In this document: one piece after another, positions 12,095-32,963 of the stretch | Layout: each line of letters starts with the position of its first letter | Position numbering within the stretch: position 1 is the stretch's first letter | Source: Bacteroidales bacterium | GTDB taxonomy: Bacteria > Bacteroidota > Bacteroidia > Bacteroidales > UBA932 | Direction: 5' to 3' | Assembly (NCBI GenBank): GCA_017554335.1 | Contig: JAFZIO010000017.1 | Coordinates: 1 to 32,963 of the forward strand | Length of the DNA: 32,963 nucleotides | Notes under the pieces: generated by a model | What the model was told of the DNA's origin: nothing | Database searches by the model: none | Seen by the model: only the letters and a program-made list of their open reading frames with translations | Position numbers and translations under genes: made by a program

Positions 12095-12200
12095 CAGGTT
12101 CGCGCAACGGTGCTCTCCGGCACACCGTTGAGCGAGAAAACGCCCCTTTTCTCGCGCATAGGTGCTTCAAAATGCACCGTTGCGCGAAGAGAGGCGCAAA
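12095..12200 (+). repeat. REP-like palindromic repeat, copy B
   Basis: The core is 12101-12189, in the same orientation as copy A and differing from it at three of 89 positions. Its central stem is perfect here (GCGAGAAAA, loop CGCCCC, TTTTCTCGC). Six bases on its left (CAGGTT) are shared with copy C but not copy A, and a GAGGCGCAAA tail extends to about 12200. It begins just after the RAYT stop and ends 17 bases before the -7 element of the sulfatase gene. Confidence 0.92.
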
Positions 12201-12216
12201 TATCCGCCATAATTAC

Positions 12217-12224
12217 TATATTTG
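12217..12224 (+). promoter_or_regulatory. -7 promoter element for the sulfatase/alpha-galactosidase unit
   Basis: TATATTTG matches TAnnTTTG exactly. It sits only 4 bases before the ATG at 12229, so the transcript would be leaderless or nearly so if both calls are right. Confidence 0.5.
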
Positions 12225-12228
12225 CGAT

Positions 12229-15479: not shown

Positions 15480-15504
15480 GCATTTATTATCCGAATTCTC
15501 TTAG

Positions 15505-15611
15505 ATTCGCCTCTTTCTTCGCTCATCGGTGCATTTTGAAGCACCTATGCGCGAGAAAAGGGGCGTTTTTTCGCTCAACGGTGTGCGGGAGAGCACCGTT
15601 GCGCGAACCTG
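15505..15611 (-). repeat. REP-like palindromic repeat, copy C (inverted)
   Basis: The core is 15517-15605 on the minus strand. It is nearly identical to copies A and B except for one arm, which reads CACCGATGAGCG instead of CACCGTTGCGCG, so the outer inverted repeat is imperfect. CAGGTT on its outer side matches copy B. It lies 37 bases after the alpha-galactosidase stop and upstream of the FAD oxidoreductase promoter, and may act as a transcript end or RNA-stabilising structure. Confidence 0.9.
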
Positions 15612-15690
15612 CGGCAATCTGGCGAGAACAGATGCGCGAACCGTCAGTTAAAAAACATTCAACCGAAACGTTGCGTAACGTATTTTTTAC

Positions 15691-15698
15691 TATATTTG
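15691..15698 (+). promoter_or_regulatory. -7 promoter element for the PUL operon
   Basis: TATATTTG matches TAnnTTTG exactly. Transcription would start near 15702 and give a leader of about 46 bases that includes the GC hairpin at 15715-15729. Confidence 0.6.
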
Positions 15699-15714
15699 AC
15701 AGCTAATACATATC

Positions 15715-15729
15715 GCGCGCCACGCGCGC
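15715..15729 (+). other. GC hairpin in the leader of the PUL operon
   Basis: Six bases (GCGCGC) pair with an identical palindromic hexamer across a three-base loop (CAC). It is followed by an A/C-rich stretch to the ATG at 15748. It may influence translation or stability of the long transcript; no riboswitch family is recognised. Confidence 0.45.
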
Positions 15730-15747
15730 ACACACAAACAATAACCG

Positions 15748-17214
15748 ATGAAAAGACGAGACTTTTTGAAAACCAGCGGTGTAGCAGTAGCCGGGAGCAT
15801 GCTTCTGGGAGGCGCAGGGAGTCTGGCTTCATCTTGTACCGGCAAAGGGAACGATATTGACTTCGGGTCAACTGACGTTCTTGTCGTTGGCGGAGGCCCT
15901 GCAGGCGTATGCGCAGCAATCGCCGCTGCCCGTTGCGGAGCCGAAACACTGATCATAGAACAGGGTAACTGCCTGGGCGGCATGGCAACCAGAGGCCTCG
16001 TCGCCCCTTTCATGACTTGCTACGACACCACCGGCGAGATAATGGTCATACGCGGCCTCTTCGCGGAGATTGTTGACAGGATGGTAGCCCTCGGCGGCGC
16101 CATACATCCCTCCCAGGTGCGCGCAGGCACCCCCTTCAGCGCCTGGATTACCAAAGGGCACGATCACTTGACCCCGTTTGACGCGGAAACCATGAAGTTC
16201 GTGCTCGACCAGATGTGCGCGGAAGCTGGCGTCAAAACGCTCTTCCACAGCACCCTCGTGGAGCCCATCGTTAAGAATAACACCATAAAAGGCGTACGCG
16301 TCCTCGGGCGCGAAGGCATAGGCCGCATAAATGCAAAAGTAGTCATTGACGCCACCGGCGACGGCGACGTGGCCGCAAAAGCAGGCGTCCCATGCACCTT
16401 CGGCAACCCGGAGCTTGGCAAAGTCCAGCCGTCCACCCTCTTCTTCCATATCAACAACGTAGACAGCCCCAGGCTCATAAAGGACGTGGAGGCACACCTG
16501 CATGAGTTCCGAAAGGTCAACGGAGTCAGCTACCGTGCCCTGCATTGGCGCGTAGAGGAGGCCGAGGCCGCCGGCGAATGGGACATCAACCGCAAGAGCG
16601 TGAACATCTACCGCGGCGTGCGCGAAGATGAGTGGGCCGTGAACTGCACCCGCATCGCAAACGTGGATGCCACCAGCACCGGGAGCCTCTCCGCCGCTGA
16701 AATCGAAGGCCGCCGGCAGGTGCAGGAGATGATGAATTTCTTCCACAAGTACGTACCCGGATGCGAGAACGCCACCATCAAGAGTTCCGCCTCCACCCTC
16801 GGCATACGCGAATCCCGTCACGTTCAGGGCGAGTATCTTCTGACCGCCGACGACCTCCTGCAGGGCGTGGTGCCGGACGACAGCATACTTGTGGCCTCCA
16901 ACAGCGTGGACGTTCACGGCCGCAACGGAGCCAACACCACGGAATACAAGACCATAGAAAACGGACAGTGGTACGGCCTGCCGCTCCGCAGCCTCATACC
17001 GCTTGACGTCGACGGCCTCATCGTTGCCGGACGCGCCATCTCAGCCACCTCCGACGCAGCGGGTGCCGTCCGCGTCATGCCCCCTTGCATGGCCATGGGG
17101 CACGCCGCCGGAATAGCAGCCGCCCTGGCTGCAGCAGGCAACTGCAAACCCCGCAGCATAGACGCCTCTGAAATCAGGCAGAAACTGCTGGAGCAGGGAG
17201 CTTTCCTCGGATAA
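15748..17214 (+). CDS. FAD-dependent oxidoreductase with Tat signal
   Basis: The 488-residue protein begins MKRRDFLKTSG, a twin-arginine signal. A Cys30 in ASSC gives a possible lipobox, so it may be a Tat-exported lipoprotein. The FAD-binding Rossmann motif is VLVVGGGPAGVCAAIAA (about 44-60), with the ribose-binding Glu71 in IIEQGNC. The remainder matches the FAD_oxidored family (GGMATRGLVAPF, RESRHVQGEYLLT, GRAISATSDAAGAVRVMPPCMAMG). Members of this family occur in many PULs and their substrates are mostly unknown. It is the first gene of an operon running to 27348, and the next gene (SusC) starts 28 bases later. A role in oxidising a sugar or a modified sugar is inference. Confidence 0.88.
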   Translation: MKRRDFLKTSGVAVAGSMLLGGAGSLASSCTGKGNDIDFGSTDVLVVGGGPAGVCAAIAAARCGAETLIIEQGNCLGGMATRGLVAPFMTCYDTTGEIMVIRGLFAEIVDRMVALGGAIHPSQVRAGTPFSAWITKGHDHLTPFDAETMKFVLDQMCAEAGVKTLFHSTLVEPIVKNNTIKGVRVLGREGIGRINAKVVIDATGDGDVAAKAGVPCTFGNPELGKVQPSTLFFHINNVDSPRLIKDVEAHLHEFRKVNGVSYRALHWRVEEAEAAGEWDINRKSVNIYRGVREDEWAVNCTRIANVDATSTGSLSAAEIEGRRQVQEMMNFFHKYVPGCENATIKSSASTLGIRESRHVQGEYLLTADDLLQGVVPDDSILVASNSVDVHGRNGANTTEYKTIENGQWYGLPLRSLIPLDVDGLIVAGRAISATSDAAGAVRVMPPCMAMGHAAGIAAALAAAGNCKPRSIDASEIRQKLLEQGAFLG

Positions 17215-17242
17215 TTTATTACTCACATATTATTAACAACCA

Positions 17243-20200
17243 ATGAAAAAACACATTCTGATCACACTCCTGTTCCTTGCCCTGGGATCGCTGGCACTAA
17301 GCGCCCAGAACGGGGTAAAGGTAACGGGAACCGTCCTGGACAAGGACGGACTTGCCGTAATCGGAGCCGGAATCCTTGAGCAGGGAACGCTCAACGGAGC
17401 CGTTACCGATGCGGACGGAAAGTACAGTATCCAGGTTGCATCCGCGAACTCCGTGCTGGAGTTCTCCTGCATCGGATACCAGACCGTAACGGAGACCGTC
17501 GGCAGCCGCAAGGTTATCGACGTAGTCATGGAAGATGACAACAAGCTCCTCGATGAGGTTGTGGTTATCGGTTACGGTACCGTCAAGAAGAAAGACCTTA
17601 CCGGTGCTATCGCCAACGTGGACGGCGGCAAGCTTTCCGCCATCCAGGGAGTTGGCCTGAGCCAGGCGCTGCAGGGCTCGATGCCCGGCGTGCAGGTCAC
17701 GCGTACCAGCGGCCTGCCGGGCGCAGGAGCCACCATCCGCGTCCGCGGTATCACCACCATCGGCGATTCCGACCCGCTCATCATCGTTGACGGCGTGCCC
17801 GTAGGCACCATCAACGACGTTGACGTGGACGCCATTGAGAACATCACCGTGCTGAAGGATGCGGCCTCCGCTTCCATCTACGGTGCCCGTGCTTCCGCCG
17901 GCGTCATCCTCATCACCACCAAGCGTGCGAAGGAGGGACAGCTGCACATCGACTACAACGGCTCCTTCAGCGTGCTCACCCGTACCCGCCATCCTGAGCA
18001 GGTCAGTCCTACCCGTTTCATGGAGCTCCAGAACGAGTGCCAGTGGAACGATGCAGGCAACCCCGAAGGTGCAGACTACTACCAGTACGAGAAGGACTAT
18101 ATCGAGAACTATATGGCAAACCATGAGCTGGATCCCGATACCTATCCCCTGGCCGACTGGGACGCCCTGATGATTAAGAAGTGGGCTCCTCAGCACAAGC
18201 ACCGCGTGGGCATCACGTACGGCAACAAGGTTATCAAGAGCCGTGCAATGCTATCGTACGAGAACGAGGACGCCCTTTATGTCGGACGTAACGTGGAGCA
18301 GTACACCGCCCGCCTGAACAACGACATCAAACTCAACAAGTTCATCTCCGCATCGGTGGATATGACCTTCAACCACAAGCTCGCAAACAACAACCAGATC
18401 AATCCCGTACAGGCGGCGTTCAAGTACAATCCCATTTATTGCGCAGTCTGGTCCGACGGCACGATGGGCCCGGGCAACAACGGAACCAACTCCTACGCCC
18501 GTCTCCTTGCCGGTGGATTCGACAACACCGAGCGTGACGCATTCTACGGCAAGTTCTCTGTGGATATCACTCCGTTCAAGAACTTCAAGATTTCCGCAGT
18601 TTTCGCCCCTTCGCTCCGCCACAGTGCAGAAAAGAATTACGTGCAGAAAGCGTACTACTACCGCGAACCGGGCATACTCAGCGAGAATCCCCTGAGCGGC
18701 TGTACCTCAACTTCCCTCACCGAAAGCCGCACTGACGCAAAGACTATCACCAAGCAGTTGCTGATCAACTACAGCGCAGACTTCGGAAAGGATCACCATA
18801 CCACTTATCTGCTCGGTTACGAGGACAGCTACAATTTCTCCGAGAGCATGGGAGCCGGTACCGACCAGATGGAGCTCAGCGGCTATCCTTACCTCAACCT
18901 GGCGAACAAGAACTTCCTGAGCGTCAGCGGTAACGCCTCGGACAACGCATACCAGTCCGTCTTCGGCCGTATCACATACGACTACAAGGGACGTTACCTG
19001 ATTCAGGCAAACGCCCGTTACGACCGTTCTTCCCGCTTTGCCAAGGAATACCGCGGCGCCTTCTTCCCTTCAGTTTCCCTCGGTTGGGTCGTAACTGAAG
19101 AGCCCTGGATGAAGGGCATCGTAGGCGGCACCCTGAACTTCGCCAAGATCCGTGCATCCTACGGTACCCTGGGAAATGAGCGCATTGGTAACTATCCTTA
19201 CCAAAGCCTCATCGCCTTCGGCAGCGTGCCCATGTACGACTCCCCTACCAGCATTGCTTCTGCAATGACTGCCGCCCAGACGGCATATGCCATCTACAAC
19301 ATCACCTGGGAGACCACCAAGACATGGGATGTAGGTTTGGACATTTCATTGTTCAACAACCGCCTCAACTTTACCGGTGACGTTTATCACAAAGACACCT
19401 ACGGCATGCTCCTGAGCCGCAAGATCCCCGATGTGCTGGGTTACAGCGATCCCGAGGACAACATCGGCCAGATGTACACCAACGGATGGGAAATCCAGCT
19501 CGGATGGAACGACCGCAAGGGTGACTTCTCCTATGCCATCAGCGCCAACCTCTCCGATTACACCTCAATAATGGGTGACCTCGGCGGATACCAGAGCCTC
19601 GGCGCCCAGATTATCCGCGAAGGCGACGAATACCTCGCCTGGTACGGCTACCGCTGCAACGGCCTTTACCTTACTGAAGAGCAGGTGGCCAATTCCGCAA
19701 AGCTGTACAACAACGTAGGCCTTGGAAACCTGGAGTACAAGGACCTCAGCGGCCCTGACGGAGAACCCGACGGAATCATCAACTCCGCATACGACCGTGA
19801 GGTTCTCGGCAGTTCCATACCTCATTACCAGTTCGGCGGCAACATCAACCTGGGCTGGAAGAACTGGGATCTGGCAATGACCTTCCAGGGCGTCGGCAAG
19901 GTGCTCGCATGGAAGAGCAACGCCATGATATTCCGTGACGGTGATGCCTACACCTTCCCCCAGGAATACGCAGACCACTACTGGAGTCGTTACAACACCG
20001 ACGAGGAGAACGCAAAAGCTCTTTATCCGAGGGCTATGCTGAAGAACTCCCAGGCCAACGATTACGAGCAGACCTCCGACTACTGGCTCTTCAACGGTGC
20101 ATATTTCCGTATGAAGAACATCACCCTCAGCTACACTGTGCCCGAGCGCCTTACCCAGGCCATGAAGATACAGAAGATTCGCATTTACGGCAGCGCTACC

Positions 20201-20311
20201 GATCCGTTCTCGATTGACGGCTTCCCTCAGGGATGGGATCCTGAATCCTACACCAACCTGAGCGCCTACATGACCAGGACATTCACCGTCGGCGCACAGA
20301 TCACCTTCTAA
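17243..20311 (+). CDS. SusC/RagA-type TonB-dependent outer-membrane transporter
   Basis: The 1022-residue protein has a Sec signal (LSAQN). It continues with a CarboxypepD_reg-like domain (about 28-105, VTGTVLDKDGLAVIGAGILEQ), the TonB-box-like LLDEVVVIGYG at about 103-113, a plug domain (GALANV... PGVQVTRTSGLPGAGATIRVRG... TTIGDSDPLIIVDGVPVG) and a long beta barrel ending in FTVGAQITF. All are SusC hallmarks. It would import oligosaccharides with the SusD partner. Unusually, a BACON lipoprotein gene sits between it and susD. Confidence 0.96.
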   Translation: MKKHILITLLFLALGSLALSAQNGVKVTGTVLDKDGLAVIGAGILEQGTLNGAVTDADGKYSIQVASANSVLEFSCIGYQTVTETVGSRKVIDVVMEDDNKLLDEVVVIGYGTVKKKDLTGAIANVDGGKLSAIQGVGLSQALQGSMPGVQVTRTSGLPGAGATIRVRGITTIGDSDPLIIVDGVPVGTINDVDVDAIENITVLKDAASASIYGARASAGVILITTKRAKEGQLHIDYNGSFSVLTRTRHPEQVSPTRFMELQNECQWNDAGNPEGADYYQYEKDYIENYMANHELDPDTYPLADWDALMIKKWAPQHKHRVGITYGNKVIKSRAMLSYENEDALYVGRNVEQYTARLNNDIKLNKFISASVDMTFNHKLANNNQINPVQAAFKYNPIYCAVWSDGTMGPGNNGTNSYARLLAGGFDNTERDAFYGKFSVDITPFKNFKISAVFAPSLRHSAEKNYVQKAYYYREPGILSENPLSGCTSTSLTESRTDAKTITKQLLINYSADFGKDHHTTYLLGYEDSYNFSESMGAGTDQMELSGYPYLNLANKNFLSVSGNASDNAYQSVFGRITYDYKGRYLIQANARYDRSSRFAKEYRGAFFPSVSLGWVVTEEPWMKGIVGGTLNFAKIRASYGTLGNERIGNYPYQSLIAFGSVPMYDSPTSIASAMTAAQTAYAIYNITWETTKTWDVGLDISLFNNRLNFTGDVYHKDTYGMLLSRKIPDVLGYSDPEDNIGQMYTNGWEIQLGWNDRKGDFSYAISANLSDYTSIMGDLGGYQSLGAQIIREGDEYLAWYGYRCNGLYLTEEQVANSAKLYNNVGLGNLEYKDLSGPDGEPDGIINSAYDREVLGSSIPHYQFGGNINLGWKNWDLAMTFQGVGKVLAWKSNAMIFRDGDAYTFPQEYADHYWSRYNTDEENAKALYPRAMLKNSQANDYEQTSDYWLFNGAYFRMKNITLSYTVPERLTQAMKIQKIRIYGSATDPFSIDGFPQGWDPESYTNLSAYMTRTFTVGAQITF

Positions 20312-20314
20312 ATT

Positions 20315-21691
20315 ATGAGCAAGATGAAAAAGTATATAAGTCTTTTCCTTTGCGCCGCTCTGGCATTTGCAGCCTGCAATCCGGAGAAGCCCGAAATCGA
20401 GGAGGAAGTATATCAGGGAATCAAGGCTTCTGTTGAGATGTCCTCTTCCGAGGCCATACCCGCCGAGGGCGGAAAGCTGGTTGTAACCGTACACAAGAGT
20501 CCGGCCTTTACCGTTTCCATGCCCAAGACCGCCACATGGCTGACTTGCTCCCAGGCCGACAGCGTACTGACTTTTACCGCCGCCGCCAATCCTTCCGCAG
20601 TACTGCGTTATGCAGGCGTCAGCATCATAGATGCGGAGCTGCAGATTGCCATCACCAATTTCGACGTAGTTCAGGCGGGCACAGCCAAAGATATCGTGCG
20701 CAAGGCTTTCCTGGTTTCCAGCCAGTCACTTCTTGCCAAGGCCGATGACAAGAGCGCATCTTTCACCGTTACCAGCGAAGTCGACTGGACTGTAACCAGC
20801 TCCAACCCTGCGTTCGTTCCCACGCCCGCTTCAGGCAGCGGCAACGGCACCGTGACCGTTAACTTCCCGGCCAACACGAAGGCCGAGGAAATCACCGCCG
20901 TCATCACCGTCATCACCACTGACGAGGCCGTGGTAAACAAGGAGCTCGCCGTCACCATCACCCAGGAGGCGGCAAAAACTACCGAGGGAGCCGTCAAGCC
21001 GGCACCCGGTACCGTTCTCGCAGAGTGGTGCTTCGACACCGACCAGGTTGATGCACTGAAGGCCGGAGGCATAGAAGGCGTCTCGCTCGACGACGACAAC
21101 GCCGTCGGCAATGTCGGTAACCCTTACGTACCTTCCAACGTTTCCGGAAACGGCAAACTTGAATATTTCAACGGCTCAGACAAATCCATAGTCTCTACCA
21201 AGAAAGTCAAACGCCGTATCGGCGAGCGCGGAGAGCTGGCTATCTACTGTTCCTGGGTAGGCGACTGGTTCACCTGGACCGCCGAGGCCGACAAGCCTCT
21301 TGCCGCCGGCACCAAGTTCAAACTCAACTTTGCACTGCGTCCCAGCCACGAAGACACCCCGAAGTACTGGAAGTGCGAATATCTGGACGGCGACAAGTGG
21401 GTTGAGCTCGAGACCATAAGCCTCGACTTCCATAAAGATGCCGCAGGCACCGCCGCGGATCCCAAGCAGATCAACTGCTTCATCAATGAAACCGCGACCC
21501 TGACTGCAGACACTCCTTACGCCCAGTTCCGCTTCACCTGTACACAGAACGCAAGGTGCTATGACGGAGCTGAAGTACCTGCCCTCACGTCTAAATACGT
21601 ACTCCGCTTCGCAGGCAAGTGGTCTGACGCTTCGGAGGACAACAAGTACCTCCAGGTTCCCGAGAACCCCAAGATTGTGGTCGTAGAATAA
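20315..21691 (+). CDS. Surface glycan-binding-like lipoprotein with two BACON-type domains
   Basis: The 458-residue product begins MSKMKKYISLFLCAALAFAAC, with lipobox FAAC. A second ATG at 20324 gives a slightly shorter signal and is equally plausible. Two BACON-like Ig domains lie at about 38-120 and 130-215 (VDWTVTSSNPAFVPTPASGSG in the second). A C-terminal beta domain of about 220 residues follows (FNGSDKSIVSTK, WVGDWFTWTAEADKPL, KYWKCEYLDGDKW). This C-terminal domain is clearly related to that of the gene at 23430. It starts 3 bases after susC. Proteins of this kind often bind glycans at the cell surface (SGBPs), but binding is inferred from context. Confidence 0.82.
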   Translation: MSKMKKYISLFLCAALAFAACNPEKPEIEEEVYQGIKASVEMSSSEAIPAEGGKLVVTVHKSPAFTVSMPKTATWLTCSQADSVLTFTAAANPSAVLRYAGVSIIDAELQIAITNFDVVQAGTAKDIVRKAFLVSSQSLLAKADDKSASFTVTSEVDWTVTSSNPAFVPTPASGSGNGTVTVNFPANTKAEEITAVITVITTDEAVVNKELAVTITQEAAKTTEGAVKPAPGTVLAEWCFDTDQVDALKAGGIEGVSLDDDNAVGNVGNPYVPSNVSGNGKLEYFNGSDKSIVSTKKVKRRIGERGELAIYCSWVGDWFTWTAEADKPLAAGTKFKLNFALRPSHEDTPKYWKCEYLDGDKWVELETISLDFHKDAAGTAADPKQINCFINETATLTADTPYAQFRFTCTQNARCYDGAEVPALTSKYVLRFAGKWSDASEDNKYLQVPENPKIVVVE

Positions 21692-23429: not shown

Positions 23430-24611
23430 ATGAAAAAGTTATTAGCATTATTAGCTGTTGCATCCCTGGCATTCATCGCCTGTGAGCCCAACAACCCGGA
23501 CACCCCCGACAACCCGGACAATCCTGATAATCCTACGCCCACCGAGAAAGCTTTCAGCGTTTCTCCCGAGACCATTCCCGTTGGAGCCGATGAAACCTCC
23601 GCAACCATCAACGTGACTGCCGAGGTCAAGTGGACCGCAAAGAGCGACAACGCCAAGTTCACCGTAAGTCCCGCTTCCGGTGAAAGCGACGCCACTATTA
23701 CCGTCAGTTTCCCTGCGAACACTGTTGCCGAAGAGGTCAAGGCTGCCATCACTATCGGCACCTACGATCCCCTGGCCAAAACCCAGACTTGGGTTGTGAA
23801 TATCACCCAGGCTGCTGCCGAAGTCACCAAAGAGCCCAAGACCCTTGCAGAATGGGAGTTCAGCGCAGACGCAGCTGACTTCTTCAAGGAGCACTTCACC
23901 TATGAGGCCGCAAAGGACGCCGACAAGAAACCCACGGCAGAGTCCAACGCACAGGGCTTCCTGAACGACGATCACTATTGCCCGTCCAATATCGTACAGG
24001 GCGGTAAGATCCGCTTCTGGAACGGCTCCGACAAGACCGCCATCAACCCTGACGGCCGCTGCAAGCGCGGAATCGGAGAAGCAGGCGAGCCTTGCTGGTA
24101 CGGTAACTGGGTAGGCGATATCGTTTACATCAACGCCCCTACCGAAGCCCTTGAGGCAGGTACCAAGCTCCACCTGTGGATGGCAATCCGCCCCAACACC
24201 CAGAACACCCTCAAGTACTGGCTGCTGGAAATCAAGGACGGCGAGAATTACGTACCGGTTGGAGAGACCAAGGCCTACGGTGACGCAAAATACAATGTTG
24301 AGCTTGTTTTCAACCCCGATGGCGACAAGACCGTTACTACCGACGAAGCCGGCAACAAAACTTACCCGGAGAATCCCCAGCAGATCAACACCATCATCGA
24401 CAGGGAATACACTCTTACCTCCAGCGTGAGCGAGGTCGAATACCGTATGACCTGCGTGGCCCTCATGTTTGCCGACGGCACCCGTGAGGCGACCGACATC
24501 GGAGACGGCACCAAGAGAGCCAACCCTGTGCTGCGTATTGCCGGCAAGGACACTACCAACGGCGGATGCAAGCCTGTCGGCCAGAACATGAAGATTGAAA
24601 TCGTTTACTAA
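23430..24611 (+). CDS. Second BACON-domain lipoprotein, paralogous to the gene at 20315
   Basis: The 393-residue product has lipobox FIAC and a Pro/Asp/Asn repeat linker (PDTPDNPDNPDNP) immediately after it. One BACON-type domain lies at about 38-122. A C-terminal beta domain of about 260 residues shares FWNGSDKTAI, NWVGDIVYINAP and LKYWLLEIKDG with the paralog. It has one BACON domain where the paralog has two. It starts 12 bases after susD and its stop overlaps the next start (TAATG), so all are co-transcribed. Glycan binding is the likely role by context. Confidence 0.82.
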   Translation: MKKLLALLAVASLAFIACEPNNPDTPDNPDNPDNPTPTEKAFSVSPETIPVGADETSATINVTAEVKWTAKSDNAKFTVSPASGESDATITVSFPANTVAEEVKAAITIGTYDPLAKTQTWVVNITQAAAEVTKEPKTLAEWEFSADAADFFKEHFTYEAAKDADKKPTAESNAQGFLNDDHYCPSNIVQGGKIRFWNGSDKTAINPDGRCKRGIGEAGEPCWYGNWVGDIVYINAPTEALEAGTKLHLWMAIRPNTQNTLKYWLLEIKDGENYVPVGETKAYGDAKYNVELVFNPDGDKTVTTDEAGNKTYPENPQQINTIIDREYTLTSSVSEVEYRMTCVALMFADGTREATDIGDGTKRANPVLRIAGKDTTNGGCKPVGQNMKIEIVY

Positions 24612-26020
24612 TGAACTATAAGCTATTGCTTATCGGATCCTGTCTCATTGCACTCCTCGCGGGGTGCAATGAGGACAAGGATAAAGACAAAGACAAACCG
24701 AAACCAGGCGACAAGACGGAGACCACCGTCGACCCTGCCATAAGCGTAACTGTCGGGCAGGTTCTTCCGGCCTGGCAGGAAGGATATCTGGACATCCATT
24801 CTATCAACGGAGGCCGCGGGGAGGCGTTCTACTACATATTCCCCGATGGCACTACTATGCTTGTAGATGCTGCCGGAGCGCCGCAGGATGAGTATTACGA
24901 ATATGGAAGCGGAGACTCCGAAGGAGTAGCGTCCAAGCCCAACCCTGCCACAAGCAGCGGGTCTGTCATAGTTGAGTATATCAAGCATTTCGCACCATCT
25001 GTCGCCAATGGCAGGCTGGATTATTTCATGACCTCCCACTACCACGGCGACCACATAGGAGCCTGGCGCTCAGAGTACGCCAAATTCGGATGGACGCCAT
25101 TGAACAAGGAAGGTGAGAAAGTCAGCACTGTCAACCTTAACGACGGCGGCTTCCTGCTTAACGGAGTGGCCGAAGTCGGCCTTTCCATACCCATCGACAA
25201 GGTACTCGACCGCGGTGACTGGGCCAGTCGTCCCTCTGCAGACTACTACGACGACGGCGGACAGAAGCGCTACAAGCTGTACATCAATTATCTGGACTAT
25301 GCCGCACGCAAGCAGGGCACCGTCCGCGAAACCCTGAAGATAGGGCACACCGACCAGATAGTCATGAAGCACGATGCTTCCAAGTACTCGACTTTCAGCG
25401 TCCGTACGATTGCTTCGGGCGGAGATATCTGGACAGGGAACGGCACGGACGTAAACACCAGTTATGTTCCCAGCACGGAAGAGTGCAAGGCCAACCACGC
25501 TGCCTGGTCCATCAGCGAAAACATTTTCTCAAATGTCTTCATGGTGAAGTACGGCAACTTCGATTTCTTCAGTGGGGGCGACATTCAATACAGCGGACGT
25601 TCCAACTACCCCTGGAAAGACATAGAGCTGCCAATCTCCCAGGTTGTAAAAAAAGTTGAGGGCATGAAAGCCTGCCATCACAGCACGGCTAACACCAACA
25701 GCGACAACCTGCTGAACAAGCTCAAGCCAGACTTCTATATAGCCGGCGTATGGCGGGCAGTGCAGCCCAACCCCGAAACGCTGCAGAGAGTTTACAACGC
25801 AAACGCCTCTGTACGGATTTTCACCACGAACCTGGCTGAAAGCAACGTGACCACTTTGAAGAATAAGGGCATCAACCCCGACAACTTCATTTCCAAGGGC
25901 GGGCACGTAGTGGTCCGTGTGATTCCGGGAGGCGCCAAGTACTATATTTACGTCCTGGACGACAACAATATGGAGTATAAGGTGAAAGCCAAGTACGGTC
26001 CTTTCGTATCTTTCATTTAA
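24611..26020 (+). CDS. Metallo-beta-lactamase-fold lipoprotein (first of tandem pair)
   Basis: The 469-residue product has lipobox LAGC (Cys19) followed by a Lys/Asp-rich repeat (EDKDKDKDKPKP). The MBL domain opens with YLDIHSINGGRGEAFYYIFPDG. It has the metal motif HYHGDH (His143, His145, Asp147, His148), a later GGD at about 322-324 and CHHS at about 355-358. This resembles the ComEC-like MBL hydrolases. Its start overlaps the previous stop by one base and its stop overlaps the next start. The substrate is unknown. Lipidation would put it on the outer membrane or cell surface, where a hydrolase of sugar esters, phosphates or sulfates would fit a PUL. Confidence 0.85.
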   Translation: MNYKLLLIGSCLIALLAGCNEDKDKDKDKPKPGDKTETTVDPAISVTVGQVLPAWQEGYLDIHSINGGRGEAFYYIFPDGTTMLVDAAGAPQDEYYEYGSGDSEGVASKPNPATSSGSVIVEYIKHFAPSVANGRLDYFMTSHYHGDHIGAWRSEYAKFGWTPLNKEGEKVSTVNLNDGGFLLNGVAEVGLSIPIDKVLDRGDWASRPSADYYDDGGQKRYKLYINYLDYAARKQGTVRETLKIGHTDQIVMKHDASKYSTFSVRTIASGGDIWTGNGTDVNTSYVPSTEECKANHAAWSISENIFSNVFMVKYGNFDFFSGGDIQYSGRSNYPWKDIELPISQVVKKVEGMKACHHSTANTNSDNLLNKLKPDFYIAGVWRAVQPNPETLQRVYNANASVRIFTTNLAESNVTTLKNKGINPDNFISKGGHVVVRVIPGGAKYYIYVLDDNNMEYKVKAKYGPFVSFI

Positions 26021-27348
26021 TGAAATTATTCTGGTTAATAATTACGGCTGCCGCCCTGGTGTCGTGCGAGGAGAAGGACAAACCGAATCCCCAGATACCA
26101 GGCGGCGACGTAACTGTAGATGAGTTTAAAGCTGACGCCGTCGGCTCCCGCTTGTCCGCCTGGAAAGAAGGCCTGCTGGATATCCACTTCATCAACACAA
26201 CCACCGGAGAAAGCACTTTCATTATCTTTCCCGACGGCACCCAGATGCTGGTAGACGCCGCCGGATCTACAGCAGCGACAGGCGTTGTCGGTTCCACCAC
26301 CAATACGGGAATACGCTCACGCTGGGATCCCACCAAGGACAGCGGATTCCGTGCCGGCAAGTTCATTGCCTCATATGTGAAGGACTGCATGGAGTGGACC
26401 GGCAACAAGACGGTAGACTATGTGCTGCTGACCCACTTCCACGGCGATCATATGGGAGGCATGACGGACATACTTGACATGCTGAACGTCAGCAAGGTAC
26501 TGGACCGTGGCTGGCCGGACTACAACTATCCGTTCGACATGCAGACCAAGGCCTCCAACGCCGGTGCTGTAAAGACCTATGTTGCTGCCGTCAAGAATCA
26601 TGTGACTAATACCGGCATGAAGGCGGAAAAGTTCGAGGCCGGTTCTGCAAGTCAAATTAAAATGGTGCACAAGGCGGCCGATTATACCAACTTCAGTGTG
26701 CAGAATATTGCCGTTAACGGGGAAATATGGGACGGCAAAGGCACCACTACCGCAACCGCCACCTTCCCGGCCCTGAAAGACATTGTCGTGGCCAATCCGA
26801 AAAGCATAGGCAATGACGATTGCTGCCCAGAAGAGAACCACTGCACCACTGCGTTTAAACTCAGCTACGGAAACTTCGATTTCTTCCACGGCGGTGACGC
26901 CCAGTATGACGGCTGCTCCACCTTTGTCTGGAAGGACATGGAGACTCCTGTAGCCCAGGCGTGTGGCGCCGTAGATGTGATGAAGGCCGACCATCACGGC
27001 CTTACCAACACGAACGGCTACGGCTACAAGGCCAAGAACGGCCATATCTGCGAGGCCATGAAGTACCTCAACCCCCGCTGCTGGATTGTAAACAGCTGGA
27101 CGGACGGGCATCCGCGCGAGAAGACTTTCGACGGGGTGACTGCCCTGCTTCCGGGCATGGATATATTTATAACGAACACCTGCAGCGACATGCAGGCGTA
27201 CGCCAATTACAATCAGGTGAAAGGAGGCGACGGACACATTGTTGTGCGCGTCTCCAAAGGCGGCACGAAGTATTTCGTCTACGTTGTTTCGGATTCCGAC
27301 GGCAGCTATACCGTCAAGAGAGTAGCAGGACCGTACGTCTCACGCTAG
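26020..27348 (+). CDS. Metallo-beta-lactamase-fold lipoprotein (second of tandem pair)
   Basis: The 442-residue paralog has lipobox LVSC (Cys16). The MBL domain begins LLDIHFINTTTGESTFIIFPDG and contains HFHGDH (His139, His141, Asp143, His144). HGGDAQYDG and DHHGLTNTNG supply further ligands. It is more complete in the canonical ligand set than the first copy, where the last His region reads CHHSTANTNS. The gene ends the PUL operon: its TAG overlaps the opposite TAG of the LptG-Fmt gene within one CTAG. Both copies share the order of strands and the metal motif, so a tandem duplication followed by divergence is likely. Confidence 0.86.
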   Translation: MKLFWLIITAAALVSCEEKDKPNPQIPGGDVTVDEFKADAVGSRLSAWKEGLLDIHFINTTTGESTFIIFPDGTQMLVDAAGSTAATGVVGSTTNTGIRSRWDPTKDSGFRAGKFIASYVKDCMEWTGNKTVDYVLLTHFHGDHMGGMTDILDMLNVSKVLDRGWPDYNYPFDMQTKASNAGAVKTYVAAVKNHVTNTGMKAEKFEAGSASQIKMVHKAADYTNFSVQNIAVNGEIWDGKGTTTATATFPALKDIVVANPKSIGNDDCCPEENHCTTAFKLSYGNFDFFHGGDAQYDGCSTFVWKDMETPVAQACGAVDVMKADHHGLTNTNGYGYKAKNGHICEAMKYLNPRCWIVNSWTDGHPREKTFDGVTALLPGMDIFITNTCSDMQAYANYNQVKGGDGHIVVRVSKGGTKYFVYVVSDSDGSYTVKRVAGPYVSR

Positions 27349-27356
27349 ACAGCGTG
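27341..27356. terminator. Hairpin spanning two convergent stop codons
   Basis: CACGCT pairs with AGCGTG across the four-base loop AGAC. Both stop codons of the convergent genes lie in or at this hairpin. No U tract follows on either side, so a true intrinsic terminator is uncertain. Confidence 0.3.
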
Positions 27357-29861
27357 CCATTCTTCCGGATTTCTGAATCCCAGCAGGAACGCCCCTATAT
27401 CCATACGTTTCTTGCCTTCCAGCTGCAGGTTCTTTATGCTCACGGCGCCGTTGGCGCAACCGATTGCCAGGTAGGTCTTGCCGTCGCTGTATATCCGTCC
27501 CGGCTCGGCACCATCCATCTTCATCACTTCCGCCTTGTAAATCTTGACGGAGCTTGCTTTAGCCGCGGCGGCAGGTGTGCCCTCCGCTGACTTCGCTTCG
27601 CTCATCCCTCCCACCGCTGACGCGGCGGGCCCCTCCCATTCACGTGGCCATGGGCGGCCACGGTCCTCGGAGGGCACACCTGCCACCGCTTGAGCAAGCT
27701 CCGTAAACGCCGCAGGATATGGTGAGAGGCCGCGAACGAGGTTCACAATGTCCTTCGCAGGGCGGTTCCAGTCGATGTGGCAGAGCTCACGGGTAAGCTT
27801 GGGAGCCGGATGCAGCACCTCGGAACCCTGAACGAACGAACGCTGCATACGCAGCTCCACATTGTGCTGGATAATAAGGTCCACGGTGTCAGTAACCACC
27901 TTGCGCCCCATCTCCATCAGCTTGTCGTGCAGGCTGCCGGCATCGTCGTCAGGCTCTATCAGGCACTCCTCACGCAGGATGATGCCACCAGTATCGATAG
28001 CATGGTCTATCATGAACGTAGTGACGCCGGTACGATGCTCGCCGTTGATAATCGCCCAGTTGATAGGAGCAGCGCCGCGATACTGCGGCAGGAGCGAAGC
28101 ATGCAGGTTGAAGGTGCCAAGGCGCGGCATCTTCCACACCTCTTCCGGCAACATACGGAAGGCCACGACTACAAAGAGGTCGGCCTTGAAAGCAGCCAGC
28201 TGCTCCAGGAACTCCGGATCGCGCAGCTTCACCGGCTGCAGCACGGGGATGCCATGCTCCACGGCGTACTTCTTGACCGCACTCTCATTCACCTTGAGTC
28301 CGCGGCCGCTGGGCTTGTCCGCAACGGTAACAACGCCTACCACCTTGTAGCCCTTCTGAACCAGTTCGTCCAGAGGTGCAACTGCAAACTCAGGCGTACC
28401 CATGTACACGATACGAGGCTTGTGGAAGAAACTCCATACGGCGCTCCATACCTTGCGCCAGGTAGATTTAACGGTGTCCATATTGAACAGCTCGGCGTCC
28501 TTGATCGCCTTGTAAGTCAGGAATATGCCCATAGGGGCAAGTACGAAGGCGGCAGCGAAATCTCCGTTGAAAGCAGAAATGGAACCGTCCTTTGCAAGCT
28601 TCTCTCCGGAAATCTGGACTATCCAGTAAATCACGAAGAAGAAAACTGAAATAATGGCGCTGATACCAAGACCTCCGCCCTTCTTGATCATGGCTCCCAG
28701 CGGAGCACCGATGAAGAAGAATATAAAGCAGGCAAGGGCCTGGGCTATTTTCTTATAAAGCTCAACGTCGGTACGGCGCAGGTAGAAAGTAGACTGGTAG
28801 ATGTCGTGGTTGTAAGTCTGTATCTCACCGGACATGCGGTCCGCCTCGCTCGACGCCTTGTCGTAGGCGCTCTTGATCTTCTCCAGATCTGGCCATGTCC
28901 ACATCTTGTCCGAGCTGTAGAACGTGCTCAGGTCTCCCCTGCGGGCGGTATCGAGCTGGGCGCGATAAGTGAAGTAACCCATAGTACGGATACGGTAGTA
29001 ATGGGCCTCCAGGGCGTCGCTGTTCTTCCGGGACAGGGAGTCGCTCTGCGCCTTCAGCTGGGAATAACGCATGGACTTTGCCTGGTCGCCGAAACGGCTG
29101 GAATCAGAATGCTCGAAGGTGTAATTGGACAGGGGTATAATGAGCTCCTGGCGATAGAAGTCCACACGGCTGAGGGCCAGAGACGTATCGCTGTAAGTCA
29201 TCTTGTTCGACTCCAGATAATTGGAGCCGTTGTGCAAGGTGAAAATCAGATAGTCCTTGTTTTTGGACATCTTAAGCAGGGCCGAATCCGCCACGATCAG
29301 GGAAGTGTTTCCCTTGCGGGATGTATGGTCGTACACCTGCACCTTATACATCATTCCGGTCTCGTCATCCTGCCCCTCGACCCTCAGCACGTATCCTTCG
29401 ATACCTTCGTAGAAAGTGCCGGAAGGGATTTTTATGCTTTCCTTGGTGCGGGTAATATCGTCGCGGAGGGTGAAAATTTCGTTGTACGCCTTGGACACCA
29501 GGTTATTGCCTATGAAGAAGGCACCCACAGCAATGAAAAAGGCGGTGACGATAAGCGGAGCGATGAGGCGTCCCAGCGAGATACCGGCAGCCTTGATGGC
29601 CATCAGCTCCTTGTTCTCGCCCAGCTGGCCCATCACCATCACGGACGACAGCAACACGGCCAGCGGCAGCGCCGTAGGCAGAATGGTGCAAGCGCCCCAC
29701 ATCATGAACTCCAGGATGACCCAGATTCCCAGGCCCTTGCCCACAAGTTCGTCGATGTAAAGCCAGAGGAATTGAAGCAGCAGGATGAAGATAACGATCA
29801 GCAATATCGCGACGAAAGGTCCGATAAACGATTTGAGCATGTACTGATCGAGCTTCTTCAT
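27345..29861 (-). CDS. fmt: LptF/LptG-family permease fused to methionyl-tRNA formyltransferase
   Basis: One 838-residue reading frame holds two proteins. Residues 1 to about 460 are an LptF/LptG (YjgP/YjgQ) lipopolysaccharide-export permease with about six helices (near 11-36, 56-78, 98-117, 371-391, 399-417, 436-452) and a periplasmic region between helices 3 and 4. Residues 482-838 are methionyl-tRNA formyltransferase. They start PRIVYMGTPEFAVAPL with no own initiator Met, and have catalytic Asn585 and His587 in NLHASLLPQYRG and Asp623 in DTGG. A linker of about 20 residues joins them, and Fmt would face the cytoplasm, tethered to the inner membrane. The Fmt C-terminal domain also carries an in-frame insertion (about 724-770) encoded by the palindrome at 27547-27704. 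The gene follows alaS by 15 bases. Confidence 0.92.
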   Translation of the reverse strand: MKKLDQYMLKSFIGPFVAILLIVIFILLLQFLWLYIDELVGKGLGIWVILEFMMWGACTILPTALPLAVLLSSVMVMGQLGENKELMAIKAAGISLGRLIAPLIVTAFFIAVGAFFIGNNLVSKAYNEIFTLRDDITRTKESIKIPSGTFYEGIEGYVLRVEGQDDETGMMYKVQVYDHTSRKGNTSLIVADSALLKMSKNKDYLIFTLHNGSNYLESNKMTYSDTSLALSRVDFYRQELIIPLSNYTFEHSDSSRFGDQAKSMRYSQLKAQSDSLSRKNSDALEAHYYRIRTMGYFTYRAQLDTARRGDLSTFYSSDKMWTWPDLEKIKSAYDKASSEADRMSGEIQTYNHDIYQSTFYLRRTDVELYKKIAQALACFIFFFIGAPLGAMIKKGGGLGISAIISVFFFVIYWIVQISGEKLAKDGSISAFNGDFAAAFVLAPMGIFLTYKAIKDAELFNMDTVKSTWRKVWSAVWSFFHKPRIVYMGTPEFAVAPLDELVQKGYKVVGVVTVADKPSGRGLKVNESAVKKYAVEHGIPVLQPVKLRDPEFLEQLAAFKADLFVVVAFRMLPEEVWKMPRLGTFNLHASLLPQYRGAAPINWAIINGEHRTGVTTFMIDHAIDTGGIILREECLIEPDDDAGSLHDKLMEMGRKVVTDTVDLIIQHNVELRMQRSFVQGSEVLHPAPKLTRELCHIDWNRPAKDIVNLVRGLSPYPAAFTELAQAVAGVPSEDRGRPWPREWEGPAASAVGGMSEAKSAEGTPAAAAKASSVKIYKAEVMKMDGAEPGRIYSDGKTYLAIGCANGAVSIKNLQLEGKKRMDIGAFLLGFRNPEEWHAV
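27547..27704. repeat. Palindromic element inserted in frame inside the Fmt domain
   Basis: The ends form a long inverted repeat. ACGGAGCTTGCT (27547-27558) returns inverted at 27693-27704, and a further 17 bases at 27570-27586 return exactly inverted at 27668-27684. The centre holds another dyad (CGTGGCC and GGCCACG). Translated, it adds about 47 Gly/Ala/Glu/Pro-rich residues to Fmt between the FTEL and SVKIYKAEV strands, where family members have only a short turn. The pattern resembles palindromic elements that insert within genes, such as those of Rickettsia. Confidence 0.6.
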
Positions 29862-29876
29862 CCCTGCTGACGGAGA

Positions 29877-32510
29877 TTACTGGCCCGTGGCTACTTTCAC
29901 AAGAGCTTCGAGGGCGTCTTTAAGTCCTGCAACTTCCTTGCCGCCGGCAGTTGCGAGTCCGGGCTGGCCGCCTCCGCCGCCCTGGATAAACCTGGCGGCC
30001 TCGCGTATATCCTTGCCCGCGTTGCGTCCTGCAGCGACGAGGTCGTCCGAGTACATAAGCAGCAGCTGCGGCTTGCCGTCCGCCTCGAAGGCGGCGACCA
30101 GGGCCGTATTCTTGAGCTCCTTCTGGAGAGCAAGCGCGGCATTGCGCATCATGCCGGTATCAAATGACTGCTGGCCGGAAGCGCTCACCTGGATAAGCTT
30201 GATGCCGTTTACCTCGACAGCCTTCTCGCTGAGCCTGCGGGCCAGCTCGGCGGCTTTATGCCTGGAGAACTCTTCTGCCTGCTTCTTGAAGGTAGCGTTG
30301 TCTTCCACCATCTTCTGGATGGCTCCGGCAAGGTCGGGAACGTTATTGAAGAAGGACCTGGCGGTCTTGAGGATGTCTTCCATATGGTGGACGTACTCTT
30401 CCGCCTTTCCGCCGGTAACGGCCTCGATGCGACGTACTCCTGCAGCCACGGCGCTTTCGGATACAATCTTGAACAGACCTATGGTGCCGGTACTGGGGGT
30501 ATGGGTACCTCCGCACAGTTCCACTGAATCGCCGAAGCGGACTACGCGCACCTGGTCTCCGTACTTTTCTCCGAAGAGGGCCATCGCACCCATTGCGCGG
30601 GCCTCATCCATGGTGGCGTCACGCTTTTCTACCAGAGGGAAGTCAGAACGTATAAGCTGGTTTACGCGGGTTTCCACTGTGCGAAGCTCCTCGTCTGTCA
30701 TCTTCTGGAAGTGGGAGAAGTCGAAGCGGAAATAATCCGGACCCACGAACGAGCCCTTCTGCTCCACGTGTGTGCCCAGCACGACGCGCAAGGCCTGGTG
30801 AAGCAAGTGGGTGCAGGTGTGGTTGTTCTGGATGTGGCGGCGGCGCACATTGTCCACCACCAGGTAGAAGGTCTGGGTGCTGCGTGAAGGCAGACGCTCG
30901 GCCAGATGGATGGTGAGGTTGTTCTCCTTTATGGTATTCAGGATTTGGATGCGCTCACCGTTTTCGCCCTCGATAAAGCCGGTGTCGCCGACCTGGCCGC
31001 CCATTTCTGCATAGAAGGGCGTGCGGTCGAATACCAGCTGGTAATACTCCTTGTTCTTCTGCTTTACGGTACGCTGCTTAAGCAGTTTGGCGCCTTTCAG
31101 ACGGAGTGTGTCGTAGCCCTCGAACACCACGTCGGCATCACTGAACACCATCCAGTCTCCGAATTCGTTGGCGGTGGCGTTGCGGGCGCGATCCTTTTGC
31201 TTCTGAAGTTCCACGTCGAATCCCTTCAGGTCTATGGTATAGCCCCTTTCCGAAGCGATGAGCTGGGTGAGGTCTATAGGGAAACCGAAAGTATCGTACA
31301 GCACGAAGGCGTCGGTACCGGCTACAACCTTGGTGGCGGTGTTCTTGTTCATGATGTCTTCCAGCATACGGATACCACGGTCCAGTGTACGCAGGAAGGC
31401 GTTCTCCTCCTCGCGGATAACGTTTGAGATAAGCTGCTGCTGAGCCTTTATCTCAGGGTATGCGTCTCCCATGTCGGACACGAGCTGAGGCACCAGGCGG
31501 CAGAGGAACGGTTCCGTGAAGCCAAGGAAGGTGTAGCCGTAACGGACGGCACGGCGGAGGATACGGCGAATCACGTATCCGGCCTTTACGTTGGAAGGCA
31601 GCTGGCCGTCGGCGATGGAGAAGCTGATGGCACGGATGTGGTCTGCAATTACACGCATGGCCACGTCTACGTCGGCACTCTCGCCATATTTGTGTCCGCT
31701 GAGCTCGCCTATCTTGTTCAGCATGCCGGTGAAGACATCGGAATCGTAGTTGCTGTTCTTGCCCTGAAGCACGGCGCAGAGGCGCTCGAAGCCCATTCCG
31801 GTATCTATGTTGCGGGCAGGCAGGGGTTCCAGGTGGCCGTCGGCCATGCGCTGATACTGCATGAACACAAGGTTCCAGATTTCGATGACGTGAGGGTCGG
31901 ACTGGTTCACAAGGTCGCGGCCGGAAATACCGCTGGCCGCCTTCTCTTCGGCGGTGCGGATATCGATATGAATCTCCGAACAGGGGCCGCAGGGACCGGT
32001 ATCACCCATCTCCCAGAAGTTGTCGTGCTTGTTGCCAAGTACGATATGATCCTCGGGAAGATGCTTGAGCCAAGCTTCTTTGGCCTCCTGGTCCATGGTG
32101 GTCCCGTCCTCCTCGGAGCCCTCGAAAACGGTGGCATAAAGGAGATTCTTGTCTATCTTGTAGACCTCCGTAAGCAGCTCCCAGGCCCAGTCTATCGCTT
32201 CTTCCTTGAAGTAATCTCCGAAGCTCCAGTTGCCGAGCATCTCGAACATGGTATGGTGGTAGGTGTCGTGTCCGACCTCCTCCAGGTCATTATGTTTTCC
32301 GCTGACCCTCAAGCACTTCTGGCTGTCGGTAGCCCTATTGAAAGGGGTAGCCTTGTTGCCGAGGAATATGTCCTTGAACTGGTTCATACCGGCGTTCGTA
32401 AACATGAGGGTGGGGTCGTTCTTGACCACCATAGGTGCGGAGGGCACTACCGTGTGCCCTTTTGAAGCAAAGAAGTCAAGGAACTTCTTTCGTATTTCTT
32501 TAGATGTCAT
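29877..32510 (-). CDS. alaS: Alanyl-tRNA synthetase
   Basis: The product of about 877 residues charges tRNA-Ala. It begins [19 protein letters not shown], continues with the class II catalytic core ([40 protein letters not shown]), and has the editing-domain metal motifs HTCTH (about 562-566) and CGGTH (about 663-667). It ends in the C-Ala domain with a Gly-rich stretch ([12 protein letters not shown]). The reading frame extends upstream to a TTG at 32522, but ATG at 32513 or 32510 fits the family. I use 32510. It lies in a probable operon with ribF upstream and the LptG-Fmt fusion 15 bases downstream. Confidence 0.97.
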
Positions 32511-32519
32511 CATAGCCTG

Positions 32520-32527
32520 CAAAGATA
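32520..32527 (-). promoter_or_regulatory. -7 promoter element for alaS
   Basis: The minus strand reads TATCTTTG, an exact TAnnTTTG, directly after the ribF stop codon. Transcription would begin near 32516, only a few bases before the alaS start, so an alaS mRNA from here is leaderless or nearly so. Confidence 0.5.
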
Positions 32528-32963
32528 CTACTTATTCTTGATAAGCGCTACGTCGGCCTGCAGTTGGGCACGGAGCGCTTCAAGGGAGGCGAACTTGCGC
32601 TCGTCGCGCAAGCGGCCCAGGAAATCTACGGTTATGTCCAGGCCGTATATCATTTCATCAAAACCCAAAATGTGTGTTTCAACTGTTATGTCGCTGCTGT
32701 CCCCCACCGTAGGACGGACACCGACGTTGGTGAGACCGTCCAGCCATTTGCCCAGAACCTGCACGCGGGTGCGGTAGACTCCCTTGCACGGAATCAGCAT
32801 TAGGGGGTCGTAGAGCTTCATATTGGCGGTAGGGAATCCTATAGTGCGCCCCAGACGGTTGCCGGCCACCACCACGCCGTACAGGCGGTAAGGCCTGCCG
32901 AGCAGCCTGGCAGCCTTCACCACGTCCCCTTCTTCAAGTGCGGAACGTATGCGACTGCTGGAC
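32528..32963 (-). CDS. ribF: Bifunctional riboflavin kinase/FAD synthetase, C-terminal part (partial)
   Basis: The frame is open to the window edge and encodes the last 145 residues. It reads [20 protein letters not shown], the end of the FAD-synthetase domain. The riboflavin kinase domain follows, with [12 protein letters not shown] (flavin/ATP binding), [10 protein letters not shown] and [10 protein letters not shown]. The family makes FMN and FAD in the cytoplasm. A GTG at 32923 is internal and not the start. The stop TAG is at 32530-32528, 15 bases before the alaS ATG codons. Confidence 0.95.

Follow-up and report, generated by a model that had tools for sequence, protein, structure and literature searches.

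Methionyl-tRNA formyltransferase (Fmt) is usually pictured as a soluble enzyme, in which the catalytic roles of an Asn, a His and an Asp are known from the Escherichia coli protein. The LptF/LptG permeases have six helices and a cytoplasmic N-terminus, and ArnA is an example of a formyltransferase domain housed within a two-function protein related to lipopolysaccharide (LPS), namely a formyltransferase/decarboxylase. Here we describe a gene in a stretch of 32,963 nucleotides from a member of the Bacteroidales (assembly GCA_017554335.1, contig JAFZIO010000017.1; the whole of this stretch is referred to as the window) in which an LptF-type permease and Fmt are encoded by one reading frame, lptF-fmt. 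From the sequence, and with a probability of roughly 0.77, we propose that this gene specifies a single bifunctional inner-membrane protein, the sole Fmt found, and that such genes were formed more than once by the joining of abutting or overlapping neighbors.

The fused gene lies at 27345..29861 on the minus strand, stop codon included, and is a single open frame of 838 amino acids with an ATG start and zero internal stops. A sequence-only reading of the window made by a model had reported one uninterrupted permease-Fmt frame at this position, with the strand unstated, and this is borne out. Searches with Pfam recognized LptF_LptG at aa 7-450 (E 5.8e-72; 243 bits against a gathering score of 27.9), Formyl_trans_N at aa 483-658 (E 1.8e-36), and Formyl_trans_C in two stretches (E 8.7e-22, 77.6 bits), the best of which, at aa 768-829, corresponds to positions 36-99 of the 100 of model PF02911 and lies C-terminal to an insert. 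On the basis of PF03739 and hydropathy, the permease part comprises aa 1-455 (28497..29861, minus strand), with six clusters of hydrophobic windows at approximately aa 16-34, 43-76, 87-117, 368-392, 397-415 and 430-453. It is followed on the same strand by a linker of 27 aa (aa 456-482; 28416..28496), which is basic and amphipathic and occupies the position of the C-terminal tail of unfused LptF, and by the Fmt catalytic domain delimited with Pfam and NCBIfam (aa 483-722; 27696..28415), which carries N585, H587, D623 and a DKPSGRG loop. An insert of ~46 aa in the Fmt C-terminal domain (27558..27695) precedes the rest of that domain and the stop codon (aa 769-838; 27345..27557, by Pfam).

The Fmt half passes the equivalog cut-off of NCBIfam TIGR00460 (235.5 against 201.5 bits), and its nearest solved structures are the Fmt enzymes 4iqf, 5uai and 1fmt. 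The three catalytic residues, which the sequence-only reading had judged to be present, are invariant in all 28 fused rows and all 40 unfused rows of the set used for our trees, and G519-R520-G521 is invariant in the 28 fused rows. The permease half is LptF-type with no formal equivalog assignment: LptF is the nearest NCBIfam model, and the LptG score of 111 bits does not reach the cut-off of 240. Across four species pairs, in some of which synonymous divergence (dS) exceeds 1, the ratio of nonsynonymous to synonymous change (dN/dS) was 0.035-0.157 for LptF, 0.035-0.085 for the Fmt catalytic domain and 0.06-0.32 for the Fmt C-terminal domain, and the LptF and Fmt domains are both under purifying selection.

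The fused gene is the only Fmt found in this genome, a draft of 2.35 Mb in 75 contigs that is 87.6% complete. Two Formyl_trans_N matches are present, one being the fused gene and the other PurN (203 bits, cut-off 150), located beside frames that we take to be purM and purH. Likewise, LptF_LptG has two matches, the fused gene and a separate permease of 363 aa that passes the Pfam cut-off and has LptG as its top NCBIfam match (160.7 bits, under the cut-off of 240); its neighbor is presumably tgt. A search for second copies, as suggested by the sequence-only reading, thus found Fmt to be unique and the second permease to be a gene of its own. Across the family, a single Fmt match at E 1e-40 was obtained in 110 of the 111 matching genomes. 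Peptide deformylase was found in all 61 genomes of the genus that were searched for it, indicating that the formyl-Met cycle is in place, and since the fused Fmt is the only one found, it should supply the formyl-Met-tRNA, barring another copy in the missing parts of these drafts. Upstream on the same strand are alaS (29877..32522, listed from a TTG with an ATG three codons on), which ends 15 nt before the fused gene, and the C-terminal part of ribF (32528..32962), which is cut by the window end and lies 5 nt before alaS as listed. The cluster with alaS and ribF described from the sequence alone is therefore confirmed.

The fusion is conserved across the genus: the junction is in one frame in 34 of the 37 genus genomes searched, and in 33 of these 37 a single stop-free match spans the permease and the Fmt catalytic domain. 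In another draft genome (G025, C269 25702-27851) the junction is in one frame with LptF split into two pieces. Of the three genomes with no visible junction, two have a match that begins at a contig end (G004 and G010) and one has a single weak match (G014). A scan of named genome records, partly the same genomes as the genus set, showed the fusion in 29 of the best 80 of 589 loci, including 'Candidatus Cryptobacteroides faecigallinarum', with many coming from gut or rumen assemblies of goat, yak, sheep, horse and buffalo. We accordingly place the window in or near Cryptobacteroides, which NCBI lists under Bacteroidales incertae sedis and whose family is UBA932 in GTDB.

To survey the wider distribution we used an Fmt-only query, with which frame length separates fused from unfused genes. 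Of 119 family genomes, 111 gave a match, with 38 frames of 684-843 aa (fused), 70 frames of 318-392 aa, and three shorter ones that are pieces. Twenty-four of the 25 family genera searched have a match, and the fusion is present in nine and was not seen in 15. All genomes with a match are fused in genera g1 (9/9), g41 (3/3), g40 (8/8, one of them, at 684 aa, at a contig end), g30 (7/7) and g39 (7/7, an eighth genome having no match), as are the sole genomes of g27 and g29, and one of three genomes is fused in both g26 and g47 (one of the three in g47 being cut). At the level of the order, 143 of 149 genomes matched, the three family members among them were fused, and the fusion was absent from all 140 order genomes outside the family, where the largest frame was 392 aa. 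In the class, 189 of 198 genomes matched; among the matches listed only the window's own genome was fused, and the next largest frame was of 423 aa. Two apparent fusions were rejected: a frame of 821 in G050, from another family, is 319 aa under the Fmt-only query, its genes being separate and 24 nt apart, and a frame of 1143 aa in G040 is likewise 320 aa.

Examination of the unfused relatives suggests how the fusion arose. We measured 23 unfused pairs in the family, and 15 of these overlap, the extent being 1-41 nt according to which start is taken, with six pairs at 5-20 nt and two at 1.2 kb. These counts include L068 and L071, which are placed among family rows in the tree, and leave out L126, L128 and L135, for which the sequence retrieved has no lptF, L137 and L153, which are cut or masked, and L070, a duplicate of L124; the upstream match of L127 is a permease-like frame of 632 aa with an unusual end. 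In Rikenellaceae, lptF and fmt are separated by a wide gap of ~1.2-1.5 kb in L077, L088, L099 and L104, in some of which what we take, by eye, to be a ribB-like gene starts after lptF, and by a narrow gap of 6-36 nt in L061-L064, L066 and L081. We also observed overlaps of 1-8 nt in L125, L132, L138 and other unfused family members, which makes translational coupling likely, and in L132 and L138 only GTG or TTG starts are in reach for fmt. In genus g47, represented here by one draft genome of each kind, the unfused G083 and the fused G119 can be aligned across the junction, and the frames are united by differences in length, of 15 and 4 nt, within the tail of lptF. Joining an overlapping pair takes just a frame change in the change-tolerant lptF tail, so fusion requires no selection.

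A tree of LptF plus Fmt with 68 rows, from which L147 (fused, g30; junction missed by the pattern) and L153 (cut) were omitted, requires four changes of state, at least three of them by starred branches. A reduced tree of 52 rows, made by dropping 16 gappy, long-branched or redundant rows, requires five changes, and the approximately unbiased (AU) test rejected a single clade of its 22 fused rows (p-AU 1.4e-5). A single fused clade was also rejected without g47, a subset picked after viewing the first tree (p 8e-4, likelihood gap 73.6). These state changes and tests reject a single origin, with reservations on tree quality that we set out below. The fusion therefore probably arose several times by frame joining; given the unfused outgroups, several gains are the simplest reading, and losses are possible. 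Fused lineages also differ in linker length: where our pattern worked (it misplaced L142 and L149), the distance between the last helix and the first Fmt strand ranges from 40 to 56 residues, which fits separate fusion events.

Based on these observations, the predicted product is one polypeptide in which an LptF-type permease subunit would lead through a short, basic and probably helical linker to a complete Fmt. Provided that the six hydrophobic clusters form helices and that the N-terminus lies inside, the C-terminus would be cytoplasmic, where the substrates of Fmt are, and a membrane-tethered Fmt on this terminus is the likeliest product. The fused domain would formylate initiator Met-tRNA at the membrane, and fMet-tRNA would then diffuse to ribosomes. 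The fused gene, in the order ribF-alaS-lptF-fmt in the window, would have arisen by an in-frame joining of already abutting or overlapping genes, an event that took place more than once in the family. We infer that translation yields mainly the full-length protein, that it is located in the membrane, that both halves are active, and that the changes ran from unfused to fused. This requires no functional coupling: a neutral account, in which overlapping neighbors fuse and both halves keep working, would suffice.

Several other explanations were weighed against this one. The first concerns the draft state of the window's genome, in which a frameshift or an assembly error, named in the sequence-only reading as something that could undo the fusion, might have joined two genes; with a one-frame junction in 34 of 37 genus genomes and in 29 of the best 80 of 589 named loci, the chance of this is negligible and we reject it. 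An almost equally remote idea is that the Fmt part has been redirected to an LPS sugar, acting as an amino-sugar formyltransferase of the ArnA kind. This would account for its association with an LPS exporter and has in its favor the shared fold and a match to ArnA of 153 bits. This score is far from the ArnA cut-off of 777 while the fmt equivalog cut-off is passed, the nearest solved structures are Fmt enzymes, the Fmt C-terminal domain is present, and this is the only Fmt found although deformylase occurs in all 61 genus genomes; we therefore reject this function on the NCBIfam scores and the structures. Post-translational cutting in the linker, giving separate LptF and Fmt proteins, is very unlikely. 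The linker is the fastest-changing part in three of the four species pairs (dN/dS 0.11-0.59), but its length from the last helix is identical in 44 of the 48 sequences measured (seven of 55 escaped the pattern), and no conserved cleavage motif was seen by eye in an alignment of 30.

A start within the linker would also yield a free, slightly extended Fmt, making the fusion partly cosmetic. The sequence-only reading held that Fmt lacks an initiator Met of its own, which is correct in that none stands directly before the first strand, RIVYMGTP, and incomplete in that Met461, an in-frame ATG at 28479..28481 on the minus strand and the sole ATG in the linker, lies 22 codons upstream; it is a candidate internal start whose position is not conserved. 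Among 55 distinct fused sequences (30 from g1, the rest from named loci, with L056 being g40-like by its tail), 46 have an ATG within the last 30 linker codons, against ~34 expected at the genes' own rate of 0.032 ATG per codon, and fmt starts within the end of lptF in 15 of the 23 unfused family pairs, which implies that internal signals once existed. Against this, nine of the 55 have no such ATG, the positions vary (-23 in 17, -8 in 18, -6 in 9), and Met would also suit the hydrophobic face of a helix. Third-position diversity at 4-fold sites, a measure that is only moderately sharp as LptF aa 201-300 is also low (0.573), is 0.615-0.65 at the junction, compared to 0.539 in the first 40 codons and 0.573-0.639 elsewhere; it is undiminished, and so gives no sign of a hidden start signal. 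The codon scan and this measure found no conserved internal start in the 55 sequences, and a single species may use one. The internal start that the sequence-only reading had raised thus survives as ATG codons in most sequences, not as a conserved site, and we consider additional production of free Fmt unlikely. It is also possible, though improbable, that the tether itself was selected, either because Fmt on the LPS exporter couples formylation or one-carbon supply to envelope export or because it enriches fMet-tRNA near membrane-bound ribosomes. The fused rows do not form one clade within the one family, zero unfused members were seen in the genus sample, and the linker has kept its length despite sequence drift while being basic (a mean of 8.0 K+R against 2.4 D+E per 30 aa in the 55 sequences) and amphipathic (hydrophobic moment at the 98-99th percentile of the protein in windows starting at aa 461-464). 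Repeated fusion together with this near-fixed length leaves room for a selected tether. However, unfused kin already have the two genes abutting or overlapping, so that fusion would have needed no selection, the fusion was not seen in 15 of the 24 matching genera of the family, linker length varies between fused lineages, and no link between Fmt and Lpt was found in the titles and abstract openings of the open-access literature searched. The narrower proposal of a useful tether, with formylation at the inner membrane within the Lpt complex and export linked to the start of translation or to one-carbon supply, draws on the same repeated fusion and is doubtful. The sequence-only reading had proposed that formylation is coupled to LPS transport; this finds no support in any of our results, as genes that abut or overlap could fuse without a functional tie.

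A number of points weigh against our preferred reading of a single bifunctional protein with several origins. The case is made at the level of sequence, not protein, and Met461 could start free Fmt. The permease half scores under the NCBI LptF equivalog cut-off (150 against 230 bits), the Pfam threshold being passed, and the fused rows are not uniform at P517 and S518 of the loop. A second fmt might be located in the part missing from a genome that is 87.6% complete. One Fmt per LptF would fix the ratio of Fmt to exporter, and to our knowledge the exporter needs no such ratio. The trees are quick searches with support from the Shimodaira-Hasegawa-like approximate likelihood ratio test (SH-aLRT) only, the likelihood gap of 657 in the first AU test is suspiciously large and points to poor optimization, for which reason we prefer the test without g47, and parsimony cannot separate gains from losses, so the direction of the changes is inferred.

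The ~46 extra residues of the insert in the Fmt C-terminal domain are encoded by a dispersed palindromic element at 27547..27704 that consists of a long outer stem and inner hairpins, with an exact core at 27603-27637, and its DNA fold has a z of -7.5. The conserved core reads CATCCCTCCCA ... GGGCCCCTCCC, and in many copies a GTGGCC hairpin comes next. The window's genome contains 38 matches to the element, including the window copy and its own two arms, leaving 35 further matches of which 29 were fetched (L156-L184); some copies are within long open frames and others outside. There are 27 exact core copies in this genome, counting the window's, and 10 of the 119 genomes of the family carry the core in exact form. 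By eye, the inner hairpin retains pairing as its sequence changes. The outer arms could be parsed in 25 of 30 fetched copies, and in 22 of these 25 the arm of the same copy pairs best; arms often differ between copies, and those of a few (e.g., L162, L164 and L165) are alike. No Rfam family matches the window element or nine other copies. An element translated inside Fmt recalls the Rickettsia palindromic elements, with the arms here being largely copy-specific. In genus g40 we observed 14 exact core copies in G163 and six in G140, and in G163 the inner hairpin is identical in 12 of the 14, as a recent burst would leave it. At the same spot in Fmt, L006, which is the closest relative at 90% identity, carries a different insert. 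Comparison by eye of the C-terminal domain in the window (27558-27695) and in L006, L011, L012, L016, L024 and L030 shows two loops that take different inserts, of varied length, from one species of the genus to another.

Other genes of the window were noted in passing. Downstream, a gene at 26020-27348 on the plus strand is convergent with the fused gene, and the two share 4 nt at the end of the latter. This gene and its neighbor at 24611-26020, also on the plus strand, encode adjoining proteins in which HxHxDH motifs and lipoprotein-like starts can be seen by eye; the product of 26020-27348 has weak matches to the metallo-beta-lactamase fold that are far under the cut-off, and that of 24611-26020 has none. 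At 12172-21691 (plus strand) is a series of genes for a sulfatase, an alpha-galactosidase-like protein, an FAD-dependent oxidoreductase, a TonB-type receptor and a weak BACON-domain protein, perhaps a glycan-use locus.

Should the gene be expressed as the full-length protein, Fmt would be made throughout a genus of gut bacteria as a membrane protein whose amount is fixed relative to one LPS exporter subunit. This would depart from the picture of a soluble Fmt and provide a natural system for asking whether the site of formylation matters. A single family contains several fused lineages, and the succession of genes that are apart, abutting, overlapping and fused offers a clear case of the fusion of operon neighbors by frame joining. 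Both domain families are known; the bifunctional fusion is unusual in its partners and in its apparently repeated origin, and an LptF-Fmt fusion is not named in the titles and abstract openings of the open-access portion of the literature searched.

Compared to Fmt as represented by TIGR00460 and the E. coli structures 1fmt and 2fmt, the fused form has the catalytic and C-terminal domains, the catalytic residues and the GRG loop in common, and differs in having no start directly before the domain, in being joined to a permease, and in the insert in its C-terminal domain. It is recognized over aa 7-450 as a member of the LptF/LptG family of the LptB2FG exporter (PF03739; 6mit, 6s8h, 5x5y), with the second permease being encoded by a separate gene, whereas the LptF of 6mit (366 aa) is ~90 aa shorter than the fused permease part and carries no enzyme at its C-terminus. 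ArnA differs from the fused Fmt in both substrate and partner, and the ArnA cut-off is not reached (153 against 777 bits). A further counterpart is the overlapping lptF-fmt pair of unfused relatives such as Bacteroidales bacterium CF (CP006772.1; L124, the same sequence as L070), in which the same two genes occur in the same order, with an overlap of 11 or 14 nt according to the start taken, but as two reading frames that encode two proteins.

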